A stretch of 64,000 bases of DNA from Sphingobacteriales bacterium. Its GTDB lineage: Bacteria > Bacteroidota > Bacteroidia > Chitinophagales > Chitinophagaceae. Both the position numbers and the translations under genes were made by a program. Positions 43,156 through 56,684 of the stretch are shown here, one piece after another. The notes beneath the pieces were generated by a model. That model worked only from the letters and a program-made list of their open reading frames with translations. It made no database searches and was not told where the DNA came from. Where the stretch lies: assembly GCA_004144175.1 (NCBI GenBank), contig SEFT01000017.1, positions 1 to 64,000 of the forward strand, given 5' to 3'. How positions within the stretch are numbered: position 1 is the stretch's first letter; each line of letters opens with the position of its first letter.

Positions 43156-43689
43156 ATGAGATATTTATTGACCATTGCTGCTTTATTGATTGGTAACGAA
43201 GCTTTTAGCCAAAGCTGGAAGGACGACATCTATGAGTCGGGCAAGTACGCTGCCACTTATAAAGATGCAGAAACGGGCAAGGTAACCGTACAGTCGAGAG
43301 AAAATATCGTGCTGATAAACAATGATGACACGATCAGCATTACGATCATGAAGCCGGAAGGTGGAAAGCTGGCATTTGTTGCGACCATCGATGGATTGGA
43401 CCTGTGCATGCCCGACAAAGCGCCTGTGTACATTGAATTCAGCAACAATGCTGTGGACAACTTCGAATCTCAAACGGAGGAGAATTGTACCGGCAATGTA
43501 CGTTTCAGTTTGGGCGGCAAATGGAAGCGAAAGAAGACAATTGGCCTGATGCGCGAGCAACTAGTACGGAAGATAAGTATCGGCGGAACCGATGAAAATC
43601 ATTACTACATGTTATCGAGAGAAGATGCGCTAGAATTGCGTAAAACAGTCAATTGTGTACTATACTTGCAAGAGCCGTATATAGACTAA
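43156..43689 (+). CDS. hypothetical secreted protein
   Basis: A 177-residue exported protein with a signal peptide (about 1-19, ending FSQ) and a mature domain rich in short strands. Recognisable local features are a QSRENIVLINNDDT segment, CMPDKAPVYIEF, an ENCTGNVRF turn and an ending with a conserved-looking cysteine (TVNCVLYLQEPYID). The family is unknown to me. It ends with a four-base overlap on the convergent lipid kinase gene. Confidence 0.65.
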   Translation: MRYLLTIAALLIGNEAFSQSWKDDIYESGKYAATYKDAETGKVTVQSRENIVLINNDDTISITIMKPEGGKLAFVATIDGLDLCMPDKAPVYIEFSNNAVDNFESQTEENCTGNVRFSLGGKWKRKKTIGLMREQLVRKISIGGTDENHYYMLSREDALELRKTVNCVLYLQEPYID

Positions 43690-44567
43690 GGCACCAACAC
43701 CTTTTGTATACCACACTCTATACGGAAGTCTACCGTGCTTTCGCATTGCAGCAGATCACCATCCACCTGCATTGCATCCATATCCGGATGACGTATTACA
43801 ACATGCCTACCACGGTAATGCGATACATAACGACTGCCGGTTAGCGTTCCGTTCATCGCACGCCATACGAGTCCGCCACCCAGTAGCTTGGGAAACTTTT
43901 TAATGATAACAATGTCAAAAATCCCGTCGGTCCAATCGGCCTGCGGAGCTATCTGGAAGTTGTAGCCAAACTGTCGGCAATTGGCTACGTTCACCATAAA
44001 TGCTTTCTCCCTTATCTCCTTACCATCAATAGTAATACTCCACTCCCGCTCGCGATAGGCCCAGAGATGCTTTGTGACTAGCCAGCTGTAAGCGATCAGC
44101 CCGCGCCTTTTACTGGCTGCAAATTCACGCGCTATCAAAGCGTCGAATGCAGTACCAGCATTGCTTATAAAAGGCGAATCGTTGGCGAAGCCGATATCTA
44201 CATTAGCAACATTATCGCGGTTGATAAGATCGATCGCACGGTATACATCCAGCGGAATGTGGAAAGTGCGCGCTACCCCATTACCGGACCCTTTGGGTAT
44301 AATGGCTAATGCTGTATTAGTACGCAGCAATCCTTTCATTACATCATTGACCGAGCCGTCACCACCTACAGCTACAACTACATACGCACCTTTACTTGCT
44401 GCCTCACGCGCCAGTTCAATACCATGTTTGGCACGTTGAGTATAGGCTATTTCGTAGCTATACTTACCATTATCGAGCCGGGTATCTATGGCATGCTGTA
44501 TAGCCTTTTGCCTGTCTACACCCGACTTGGGATTGATGATAAATACAAGATGCTTTTTATCGGTCAT
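43686..44567 (-). CDS. DAGKc-domain lipid kinase (YegS/sphingosine kinase superfamily)
   Basis: A 293-residue lipid kinase of the superfamily that holds bacterial YegS/DgkB and eukaryotic diacylglycerol, sphingosine and ceramide kinases. N-terminal nucleotide-binding domain with the PKSG motif (near residue 13) and VAVGGDGSVNDVMKGL near 65; IPKGSGNGVARTFHIP (near 90) is the GTxN-type loop. The lipid-binding sandwich follows with DGIFDIVIIKKFP near 208. It is the last gene of the 13-gene leftward lipid operon, 18 bases after the desaturase. This position allows a ceramide- or sphingoid-base kinase role, but diacylglycerol or another lipid is equally possible. The last four bases overlap the convergent gene at 43156. 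Confidence 0.85.
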   Translation of the reverse strand: MTDKKHLVFIINPKSGVDRQKAIQHAIDTRLDNGKYSYEIAYTQRAKHGIELAREAASKGAYVVVAVGGDGSVNDVMKGLLRTNTALAIIPKGSGNGVARTFHIPLDVYRAIDLINRDNVANVDIGFANDSPFISNAGTAFDALIAREFAASKRRGLIAYSWLVTKHLWAYREREWSITIDGKEIREKAFMVNVANCRQFGYNFQIAPQADWTDGIFDIVIIKKFPKLLGGGLVWRAMNGTLTGSRYVSHYRGRHVVIRHPDMDAMQVDGDLLQCESTVDFRIECGIQKVLVP

Positions 44568-44585
44568 AAGATTGATAGAAGCATA

Positions 44586-45623
44586 TTAGCGATCAGCTTC
44601 TACAACCGGCTCTCCGGTGAGTATTTCCTGCTCTTTACCAGTATCTGATGAATGTGATGTAGCAGGTATCACCCTAAGCTTACCACGATTGGCACGTGCT
44701 ACACGCGAGTAGATAGAGAGATTCTTATCAAACAAAAAACGGAACAATAATGCTGTGTATGAGGTATGGTAGCCGAGTGTTTCGTAATAATTGTTTGCTA
44801 TTGCTTTTACTTTGGGCAACTTGTTCCAGGGTATTGAAGGAAAATCATGATGTTCGTTATGATAACCCACGTTAAGATTTACAGGATTTAGCACTCCGTA
44901 ATAGCTTTTAGTTTCCTGATCACCGTGCGTCAAGTAGTGCTCCTGTATCCAGCGAGCGCCTAGTGGGTGCAGGCCGATAGAGAAGAAAAAGCTAGCTATA
45001 AGAAAAACAGTAGCCTTTGCACCAAAAAAGTAAACAATACAAGCCATGAAGCTAAACTGCACCAGCCAGTTAATAACGGTCCATTTATCGAAAATGGATA
45101 TCTCTTTAGTGAGCCTCAGCGGACGTAATAATTGAAACACGGGGTAGAACAACAGCCACAGTGCCTTGCCCAGAATCGAATTGTCTATCATTTTAGCCTC
45201 CCACTTGAAGGGCATATCTGCATCCAGCTCTTCCACACCCTGAAACGAGTGGTGCTTTATATGATACTTCTGGAACGAAACAGAGCTGGGAAATACAAGT
45301 GGCAGGTTAGCCAGTATGCCCGACAAAGTATTCAGCACACGGTTCTTGAAAAGCAGGTTATGCGCGCACTCATGTATGCATACAAACAATGTATGGCAGG
45401 CAAAAGCACCTATCAAATAGGCAGCAATGAATACCCACCACCACGATACATCTTTCAGAAAATAGGCAAGTGAAAATTGCAAGCCTACGCACAGCATTAT
45501 GACAAAGATGGTATAAGGATTCCTCCCGATCAGGCTCCTGATCTCCGGGTGATTCTTTAGGATATCCTTGGTCCGCTTTTTATGCGGTTCCGCTTCTTCC
45601 GACCATTTGAATTGCTTTTCCAT
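44586..45623 (-). CDS. fatty acid desaturase of the dihydroceramide delta-4 desaturase (DEGS1) type
   Basis: A 345-residue integral-membrane diiron desaturase. Histidine boxes: HECAH (84-88), HIKHH (121-125) and HNEHH (255-259), the last within NVGYHNEHHDFPSIP. The sequence follows the eukaryotic sphingolipid delta-4 desaturase from the N-terminus on: an FKW-x-PH-x(8)-IL-x-x-HPEIRSL prelude (residues 5-31), the ANLPL...SFQKYH region (105-121), QEHY and KSYYGVLNP before the third box, and YSR near the end. Ordinary bacterial acyl desaturases lack this prelude and the HNEHHDFP box. It lies between TetR and the lipid kinase in an operon with all sphingolipid synthesis genes, so the likely reaction is dihydroceramide to ceramide. 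Membrane topology fits four helices with the boxes facing the cytoplasm. Confidence 0.85.
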   Translation of the reverse strand: MEKQFKWSEEAEPHKKRTKDILKNHPEIRSLIGRNPYTIFVIMLCVGLQFSLAYFLKDVSWWWVFIAAYLIGAFACHTLFVCIHECAHNLLFKNRVLNTLSGILANLPLVFPSSVSFQKYHIKHHSFQGVEELDADMPFKWEAKMIDNSILGKALWLLFYPVFQLLRPLRLTKEISIFDKWTVINWLVQFSFMACIVYFFGAKATVFLIASFFFSIGLHPLGARWIQEHYLTHGDQETKSYYGVLNPVNLNVGYHNEHHDFPSIPWNKLPKVKAIANNYYETLGYHTSYTALLFRFLFDKNLSIYSRVARANRGKLRVIPATSHSSDTGKEQEILTGEPVVEADR

Positions 45624-55404: not shown

Positions 55405-56609
55405 ACAGCTTGTTTTACGGGCATTGCATTTACAAACTTGAATGCCTTCGACAGCTTATCTATTGCCTCATCTATCTGGCTGAAGCTATGTGTAGCCATC
55501 AGCGAGAAGCGTATGAGCGTAGCATCTGGCGGCACTGCCGGAGACACTACCGGATTCACAAAAATGCCATTGTCCTGCAGGTACTTTGTTATCAGGAATG
55601 TCTTTTCATTGTCGCGTATATATATAGGTATGATCGGCGTTTCTGTTACACCTATATCATATCCTTCTTCTTGTAACAATCTGGTAGCATACCTTGTATT
55701 GGCCCAAAGGCGGTCGATATGCTCCGGCTCCGACTCAATGATGTCAAGGGCTGCAATAACACTTGCTACGGAAGCAGGCGTCATGCTGGCGCTAAATATG
55801 AGCGAGCGGGCGTGGTGTTTCAGATATTCGATGGTAGGTGCATCGGCAGCAATAAAGCCACCCAGTGATGCCAGCGATTTGCTGAACGTACCCATTATCA
55901 GGTCTACATTATCTGTAAGGCCGAAATGAGAAGCTGTTCCGGCACCATTCTCCCCTATTACACCCAGGCTGTGGGCATCATCTACCATTATATTCGCGCC
56001 ATACTTCTGTGCTAAGGCTACTATTTCCGGCAATTTTACAATGTCGCCCTCCATACTAAAGATGCCATCTACCGCTATCAGCTTTACCGCTTCATCGGGC
56101 AGGTTCTTCAGCTTGTTCTCGAGGTCTTCCATGTTATTGTGCCTGTACTTTATGGTACGGCTAAACGAAAGACGGCTACCATCTATCAGTGAAGCATGGT
56201 TGTATTCGTCGAGGATCAGGTAATCGTTGCGGCCGGTTAGTGAAGAAAGGACACCCAGGTTTACCTGGAAGCCCGTGCTGAAGATGATCGCATCTTCTTT
56301 GCCTACGTATGCAGCCAGTCTTTTCTCCAGCTCCACATGTATATCCAGCGTTCCGTTCAGGAACCGGGAACCAGCACAACCGGTACCGTATTTTTCCACT
56401 GCTGCTTTTGCAGCCTCTTTAAGTCTCGGGTCATTGGTAAGGCCGAGGTAAGAGTTAGAACCAAACATCAGTACTCTCTTGCCATCTATCATCACCTCGG
56501 TATCCTGCCCCGAAGAAATAGGCCTGAAGTACGGATAGATACCCGCTTTCCTTGCTTCAGCCGCCGCTGTATACGCACTAACTTTATCAAGTAGCTTTCC
56601 TTTCTTCAT
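55401..56609 (-). CDS. spt: serine palmitoyltransferase
   Basis: A 402-residue PLP-dependent alpha-oxoamine synthase that condenses L-serine with an acyl-CoA to 3-ketosphinganine, the first step of sphingolipid synthesis. Signatures: [16 protein letters not shown] near residue 49, [17 protein letters not shown] near 75-91, [20 protein letters not shown] near 212-231 (PLP-binding Asp and His) and the Schiff-base lysine in [13 protein letters not shown] near 244. It resembles the soluble Sphingobacterium enzyme almost throughout; related KBL and AONS lack this block pattern. Cysteate acyltransferase for sulfonolipids is a related alternative, but the downstream inositol/AUR1 genes favour sphingolipids. 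First gene of the operon. Confidence 0.93.
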
Positions 56610-56652
56610 AAAGTACTCAGTGTTGTTTTCTAGTTTACTTGTAAAATTTACT

Positions 56653-56684
56653 TTTTGACCAATTCAGATGAATGGTCAAAATTA
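56653..56684 (-). promoter_or_regulatory. spt-operon promoter overlapped by an inverted-repeat operator
   Basis: A perfect minus-strand TAnnTTTG box (TAATTTTG, 56677-56684) lies about 70 bases ahead of the spt ATG. An inverted repeat covers it: TTTTGACC (56653-56660) and GGTCAAAA (56674-56681), extended by inner ATTC/GAAT arms. The repeat covers the -7 box and the expected start site, the layout of a repressor site, and the operon encodes a TetR regulator. Confidence 0.7.

Follow-up and report, generated by a model that had tools for sequence, protein, structure and literature searches.

In Bacteroides thetaiotaomicron, the genes BT_1526 to BT_1522 encode, in this order, a myo-inositol-3-phosphate synthase (MIPS), a PgpA-type phosphatase, a GtrA-family protein, a phosphatidylinositol-phosphate (PIP) synthase and an AUR1-like enzyme, and knock-outs of BT_1526-1522 support synthesis of phosphatidylinositol and inositol phosphoceramide (IPC) by this cluster, according to the consulted parts of two reports (Heaver 2022, PMC9246714; Sartorio 2022, PMC8791184). 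An earlier note on the DNA analysed here had stated that Bacteroides species keep such genes at separate loci. The partly consulted literature agrees, as serine palmitoyltransferase (SPT; BT_0870), 3-ketosphinganine reductase (BT_0972) and BT_1522-1526 of B. thetaiotaomicron carry distant locus numbers. In Caulobacter crescentus, SPT, ceramide synthase and ceramide reductase are encoded by spt-bcerS-cerR, and acylation is proposed to precede reduction (Uchendu 2024, PMC11087976, consulted in part). The window studied here is a stretch of 64,000 nucleotides from a Sphingobacteriales bacterium of the Chitinophagaceae (assembly GCA_004144175.1, contig SEFT01000017.1, positions 1 to 64,000; genome 4.34 Mb in 93 contigs). 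It carries a thirteen-gene operon that combines genes corresponding to both sets and adds a gene of the sphingolipid Delta4-desaturase family. The predicted head group of its product is phosphoinositol, whereas that of the Caulobacter phosphosphingolipid is phosphoglycerate (PMC11324152, consulted in part).

We propose, at a probability of roughly 0.6, that the operon provides a complete route to IPC with a Delta4-unsaturated ceramide part, as in eukaryotes, and that such Delta4-unsaturated IPC is made. That IPC as such is the product of the operon appears highly likely, because family searches support SPT, the GNAT enzyme, the reductase, MIPS, the PgpA-type phosphatase, the GtrA protein, the PIP synthase and the AUR1-like protein. 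These genes and the desaturase gene are the following:

55401..56609, minus strand: serine palmitoyltransferase (NF047600 SerpalmtaseCFB 743.8 bits versus a cut-off of 640; aminotransferase I/II; GTFSK stretch at residue 240)
54283..55404, minus strand: GNAT-type acyltransferase, candidate bacterial ceramide synthase (bCerS-like; Acetyltransf_1, a narrow pass at 26.1 versus 20.7 bits)
53297..54286, minus strand: epimerase-type short-chain dehydrogenase/reductase, candidate ceramide reductase (CerR-like; Epimerase 103.9 bits; recurs in the operon)
51937..53262, minus strand: myo-inositol-3-phosphate synthase (PF07994 346.5 bits, PF01658 110.9 bits)
51482..51937, minus strand: PgpA-type phosphatase, candidate PIP phosphatase (BT_1525-like; PF04608 133.8 bits; holds the place of BT_1525 in the gene order)
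51111..51482, minus strand: GtrA-family membrane protein (BT_1524-like; PF04138 55.9 bits)
47808..48539, minus strand: predicted PIP synthase of the BT_1523 type (NF052561 PIPSynBT1523 398.5 bits versus 350; CDP-OH_P_transf; CDP-alcohol motif at residue 85)
46254..47195, minus strand: AUR1-like protein, putative IPC synthase (PAP2_3 82.8 bits; AMPSLH at 228, HHYVLD at 272)
44586..45623, minus strand: enzyme of the sphingolipid Delta4-desaturase family (dihydroceramide desaturase-like; Lipid_DES PF08557 51.4 bits with a cut-off of 23, FA_desaturase 107.1 bits)

From the observed gene content, gene order, family membership, co-occurrence and operator footprint, we infer the following catalytic steps, double-bond position, diacylglycerol recycling, export and repression in the window organism. 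SPT would form 3-ketosphinganine, which the GNAT enzyme would N-acylate and the epimerase-type reductase would then convert to dihydroceramide; the Lipid_DES-family desaturase would add a 4,5 double bond to the latter. MIPS, the BT_1523-type synthase and the PgpA-type phosphatase would together yield phosphatidylinositol, and the AUR1-like enzyme would transfer its phosphoinositol to (dihydro)ceramide, freeing diacylglycerol. A lipid kinase probably turns the freed diacylglycerol back into phosphatidic acid, an Omp85-like DUF5686 barrel may help to put the lipid into the outer membrane, and a TetR protein bound to a palindrome at the promoter would repress the operon, including its own gene.

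The inositol part of this route closely follows the Bacteroides cluster. The MIPS, PgpA, GtrA, PIP synthase and AUR1-like genes keep the order of BT_1526-1522, here with genes for a DUF5686 and a DUF4833 protein interposed, and compared with BT_1522-1526 the operon adds SPT, the acyltransferase, the reductase, DUF5686, DUF4833, TetR, the Delta4-desaturase-family gene and the lipid kinase. A solved AUR1 structure (9ivc) aligned to the AUR1-like protein with E 4.7e-14. The alignment to yeast-type AUR1 covers a core region that includes the histidine motifs, but only residues about 118-283, and the partner enzymes in the window are bacterial. By its sequence, the AUR1-like protein is a member of the wider AUR1-like/PAP2_3 group, and we claim nothing narrower for it. 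Together, the family matches, the collinearity with BT_1526-1522 and the AUR1 homology support the IPC pathway that the earlier note had read from this operon. For the ceramide part, the ceramide synthase of Caulobacter has a GNAT fold and its ceramide reductase an epimerase fold; the window proteins are likened to this set by Pfam family and gene neighbourhood. A search with the GNAT protein, which gave matches in 59 of 60 genomes, was unable to tell ceramide synthases from their paralogues.

The protein that the earlier note had listed as a plain desaturase falls into the family of sphingolipid Delta4-desaturases, and with this assignment ceramide replaces dihydroceramide as the predicted product. 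Pfam describes the N-terminal Lipid_DES domain as sphingolipid Delta4-desaturase. The eukaryotic DES enzymes have three histidine boxes; those of the window protein are intact (HECAH at 84, HIKHH at 121, HNEHH at 255), and a bacterial alignment of 13 rows shows no variation at the box histidines. The Lipid_DES N-terminal domain and the FA_desaturase domain are common to the window protein and the eukaryotic DES/DEGS enzymes, a likeness by Pfam domains only; the window enzyme differs in being bacterial, in lying within an IPC operon and in that its activity is predicted. A sequence search of the PDB gave no match to the desaturase.

The desaturase gene strongly co-occurs with the AUR1-like gene. 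Our family sample comprised 294 genomes, 56 of them with an AUR1-like gene (55 after the weak match G494 was dropped), and 61 had Lipid_DES above its cut-off; a 62nd match lay below the cut-off and had internal stops. The desaturase was present in 41 of the 55 genomes with an AUR1-like gene (AUR+) versus 20 of the 239 without (AUR-), or in 24/27 versus 7/74 when counted by genus. In a phylum sample of 395 genomes, in which an AUR call required a match at E<=1e-30, Lipid_DES occurred in 40 genomes, distributed as 11/14 AUR+ versus 29/381 AUR-. Outside the family, the figures were 6/8 versus 28/373, with one genus giving five of the six. Five members of the window's own genus were sampled, and the desaturase was found in both AUR+ members and in none of the three AUR- members. 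Lipid_DES was absent from all 14 control genomes. Inside the IPC operon itself, the desaturase gene occurs in three species and at two different positions: it follows TetR in the window and sits between an FA2H-like gene and AUR in L107/L310 and in L129 (L107 and L310 were counted as one species, as they share a genus and 97.07% DNA identity over 13,350 bp).

This FA2H-like gene of about 208 codons is a further recurrent element of the sister operons (L103-L154, L274-L353), where it mostly lies between DUF4833 and AUR. It was found in 40 of 52 family loci and in 53 of 80 named-genome loci (both sets are defined below), and the FA_hydroxylase domain was present in both copies tested. The window operon has no FA2H-like gene; the window genome carries five FA_hydroxylase genes, and the nearest of them shares 40% identity with the operonic type. 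According to the consulted part of a review (PMC10002949), functional FA2H-like enzymes exist in some myxobacteria. The operonic gene is a candidate ceramide 2-hydroxylase.

The earlier note had described thirteen tightly packed leftward genes in one operon, and both the packing and the layout hold. All 13 open reading frames (ORFs) lie on the minus strand within 43686-56609, from SPT as the first to the lipid kinase as the last, and the 12 junctions counted from the SPT end measure -4, -4, 34, -1, -1, -14, 20, -1, 40, 21, 6 and 18 bp, that is, between -14 and +40 bp; judged by this spacing, co-transcription of the 13 genes is likely, although five minus-strand terminator-like consensus sites lie inside the operon. 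The end coordinate given in that note, 56684, includes a palindrome upstream of SPT (56653-56681). All 13 proteins had at least one Pfam family above cut-off. NCBIfam was run on ten of them, leaving out the DUF5686, DUF4833 and MIPS proteins, and two of the ten passed an equivalog cut-off (SerpalmtaseCFB and PIPSynBT1523). Since the same gene order recurs in dozens of genomes, it is not due to chance.

The recurrence was assessed in two sets of loci. In the family sample, 54 strong AUR1-like matches were found besides the window, and 52 of their neighbourhoods were fetched (the fragments G528 and G668 were left out), five of them shortened by contig ends. The second set, from named genomes, comprised the best 80 of 551 confirmed AUR1-like loci and partly covers the same genomes. 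Within the 52 family neighbourhoods, we found the PIP synthase in 52, PgpA in 46, DUF4833, GtrA and DUF5686 in 45 each, MIPS in 41, SPT in 33, GNAT and the reductase in 30 each (one reductase count being a weak opposite-strand match in L153), a TetR gene in 23, the desaturase in 2 and the lipid kinase in none; the acyltransferase lay beside SPT in 30. SPT was present in 52 of the best 80 loci, the GNAT acyltransferase in 50, DUF5686 in 76 and DUF4833 in 70, and 24 had the exact order SPT-GNAT-reductase-MIPS-PgpA-GtrA-DUF5686-PIPS-DUF4833-FA2H-AUR, in genera including Pedobacter, Pontibacter, Rufibacter and Foetidibacter. By family, these 80 loci belong to Sphingobacteriaceae (36), Chitinophagaceae (16), Hymenobacteraceae (13), Cytophagaceae (5) and Bacteroidaceae (1, the label of an uncultured metagenome-assembled genome), with nine unassigned. 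In Chitinophagaceae, Sphingobacteriaceae and Hymenobacteraceae, across which the same-order check shows it to be spread, the single operon is commonplace, and the unusual arrangement that the earlier note had seen in it was not borne out. The idea that the one-operon layout itself is rare was rejected on the counts of SPT (33/52 and 52/80), the acyltransferase and the reductase (30/52 each).

Regulation of the operon can be related to three further features:

45630..46232, minus strand: TetR-family regulator (TetR_N 63.9 bits)
56653..56681, minus strand: palindrome TTTTGACC-ATTCATCTGAATT-GGTCAAAA (arms around N13), candidate TetR operator and the sole perfect copy in the genome
56677..56684, minus strand: TAATTTTG, predicted promoter box read from the sequence, overlapping the left arm of the palindrome

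The dedicated TetR regulator postulated in the earlier note is supported and gains a candidate operator over the predicted promoter. The box TAATTTTG fits TAnnTTTG, which we take to be the Bacteroidota -7 box; no -33 box was recognised upstream of SPT, and sigma-70 consensus matches were not enriched (25 versus 29.3 in shuffles). The motif GACC-N13-RGTC was present in 7/7 SPT upstream regions (260 bp) of loci with this TetR gene after AUR and in 0/27 others. The seven loci are the window, L106, L108, L111, L112, L119 and L129 and represent five genera; in 1000 mononucleotide shuffles per region, the motif arose at a per-locus rate of 0-0.006. No second perfect operator was found in the genome, and sites with <=3 mismatches numbered 21 versus 19 in a reversed control. 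As the motif tracks the TetR gene and the perfect copy is unique, the most likely role of the TetR protein is that of a repressor, acting through the promoter palindrome on the whole operon and so on its own gene as well. In other lineages, SPT or MIPS has a TetR gene upstream, and in L110, L113 and L114 the TetR gene upstream of SPT is accompanied by its own inverted repeat, GAACAAA-N7-TTTGTTC. The pattern suggests that TetR regulators were recruited repeatedly to the IPC operon.

The remaining three genes of the operon are:

48560..51124, minus strand: DUF5686 protein, candidate exporter of the lipid; carboxypeptidase-regulatory-like domain at the N-terminus, outer-membrane barrel predicted to be Omp85-like (PF18939 173.5 bits)
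47236..47808, minus strand: DUF4833 beta-rich protein (PF16117 171.6 bits; AF2 model with a predicted local distance difference test (pLDDT) score of 87.6)
43686..44567, minus strand: lipid kinase of the diacylglycerol-kinase/YegS family, candidate diacylglycerol recycler (DAGK_cat 102.4 bits, YegS_C 76 bits)

An AF2 model of the DUF5686 protein, built from 37 sequences, reached a pLDDT of 76.2, and its best Foldseek matches were the BamA, SAM and TamA barrels, with E from 3.8e-8. The template modelling (TM) score was 0.65 by the length of the TamA barrel, but only 0.24-0.29 by query length (0.27 for TamA). The predicted barrel may be of the type found in Omp85 proteins such as BamA and TamA; DUF5686 differs by the additional carboxypeptidase-regulatory-like N-domain and an identity of about 10%. 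The model agrees with the possible export proteins of the earlier note, and our guess from context is that DUF5686 may move the sphingolipid into the outer membrane; the window genome has three DUF5686 genes. The confident beta-rich model of DUF4833 had no PDB match at E<=0.001. For the lipid kinase, recycling of diacylglycerol to phosphatidic acid would be the simplest role. AUR1-type reactions release diacylglycerol, and a diacylglycerol kinase therefore fits the operon.

Next to the operon, a malate:quinone oxidoreductase gene (57291-58781) lies upstream of SPT, with terminator-like hairpins separating the pair, and a plus-strand gene (43156-43689) follows downstream. Beyond the latter, which lies between it and the operon end, there is a PAP2-family gene (42141-43040).

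Several observations weigh against the proposed route. The co-occurrence tests ignore shared ancestry, and genus g8 shows the reversed pattern, with two AUR+ members lacking the desaturase and one AUR- member having it. Among the 41 family genomes that carry both desaturase and AUR1-like gene, only 3 have them in one operon. In the other 39 phylum genomes, the 9-20 kb around the desaturase contained no further operon gene apart from a TetR-like match about 7 kb away; in one case, the locus starts directly with the desaturase. Desaturase carriers had been expected to be confined to SPT-bearing genomes and are not: SPT is below the curated cut-off in 16 of the 20 AUR- carriers of the family (4/20 pass) and in 31 of the 40 desaturase-bearing phylum genomes (9/40 pass), some of the SPT-less assemblies being incomplete and many not. 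G402, G654, G651 and G623 are among the SPT-less carriers. SPT passed the cut-off in 2/40 genomes lacking both genes (a random draw of 40 from 45; p 0.09 for the difference) and in 18/395 of the phylum sample. A 95-row desaturase tree, made by a quick method with SH-aLRT support only and with long-branch warnings, scatters the genes of SPT-less genomes without a separate clade, the operonic copies lying among the genes of AUR+ genomes. Because many carriers lack an SPT over the cut-off, the family may act on another substrate in some lineages or may outlast the pathway where the latter has been lost. When the 25 commonest clusters of genes next to unlinked desaturases were judged by eye, no sphingolipid-related gene was recognised (79 of 94 loci, longer than 5 kb and not operonic, with the gene called in 78 and many cut by contig ends). 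These counts and neighbourhoods would suit a plain dihydroceramide IPC, saturated as in B. thetaiotaomicron, with the desaturase acting on another lipid such as a fatty acyl group. Such a product is unlikely in our estimate, as Lipid_DES is named for sphingolipid Delta4-desaturases and missing from the controls, the co-occurrence with the AUR1-like gene is strong and the gene was placed twice separately inside the IPC operon. Animal DES2 is a C4-hydroxylase, and the window enzyme could likewise be a hydroxylase or bifunctional, giving a phytoceramide-type IPC or hydroxylating an acyl chain. It could then stand in for the FA_hydroxylase-family gene that most sister operons have and this one lacks; the DesA-family desaturase/hydroxylase CC_0202 of Caulobacter is reported to hydroxylate the amide-linked acyl chain of sphingolipids (PMC11324152, consulted in part). 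We regard hydroxylation as quite improbable, given that two of the three species with an operonic desaturase keep the FA2H-like gene beside it.

Other points against the proposed route concern its remaining components. The AUR1-like protein stays under the cut-off of the phosphatidylinositol-dihydroceramide synthase equivalog NF052609 (318.9 versus 480 bits), and a homologue of the lipid kinase occurs in 0/52 other family AUR neighbourhoods. A role of this protein as a kinase of ceramide or of a long-chain base, in place of diacylglycerol, seems rather unlikely, since AUR1-type release of diacylglycerol suits a diacylglycerol kinase and the protein matches the generic DAGK/YegS families while reaching no NCBIfam cut-off. 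Sphingolipid synthesis in Caulobacter does include a ceramide kinase (PMC11324152, consulted in part). With regard to regulation, the TetR protein and the palindrome might be unrelated, the latter being bound by another regulator. Consistent with this, a second set of loci contained one with the TetR gene and a one-letter variant only (GAAC; L324) and one with a motif match at -165 without this TetR (L315). The 7/7 versus 0/27 association, for which the motif was chosen after inspecting the sequences and three of the seven loci belong to one genus, argues against such independence, as does the uniqueness of the perfect copy, and we deem it very unlikely.

To our knowledge, bacteria are usually said to lack the step from dihydroceramide to true ceramide. 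The IPC core is already known, and what may be new is that a bacterial IPC operon contains a gene of the Delta4-desaturase family. The word "desaturase" is absent from the main text of PMC9246714 and PMC8791184. Among the matches listed for open-licence PMC papers, there was no bacterial dihydroceramide desaturase gene and no combined operon, which is weak evidence of absence.

For the phylum, we consider it close to an even chance that many Bacteroidota assemble complex sphingolipids in a eukaryote-like manner from regulated operons, with Delta4-ceramide formed by a DES-family desaturase, often with FA2H-like 2-hydroxylation, with phosphoinositol added by an AUR1-like enzyme and with Omp85-like delivery. 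The Delta4-desaturase-family gene in an IPC operon and the phylum-wide co-occurrence make this idea directly testable in culturable relatives, for example Taibaiella soli, which carries the IPC operon and, unlinked to it, the desaturase. The candidate operator provides a specific starting point for work on regulation, and with DUF5686 a candidate exporter can be named. If true, the view that dihydroceramide is the only ceramide made by bacteria would not hold for a large group of them, and the finding would bear on the origin of eukaryotic tailoring enzymes, on the interpretation of d18:1-type sphingolipids from environmental or host samples and on the route of sphingolipids to the bacterial outer membrane.

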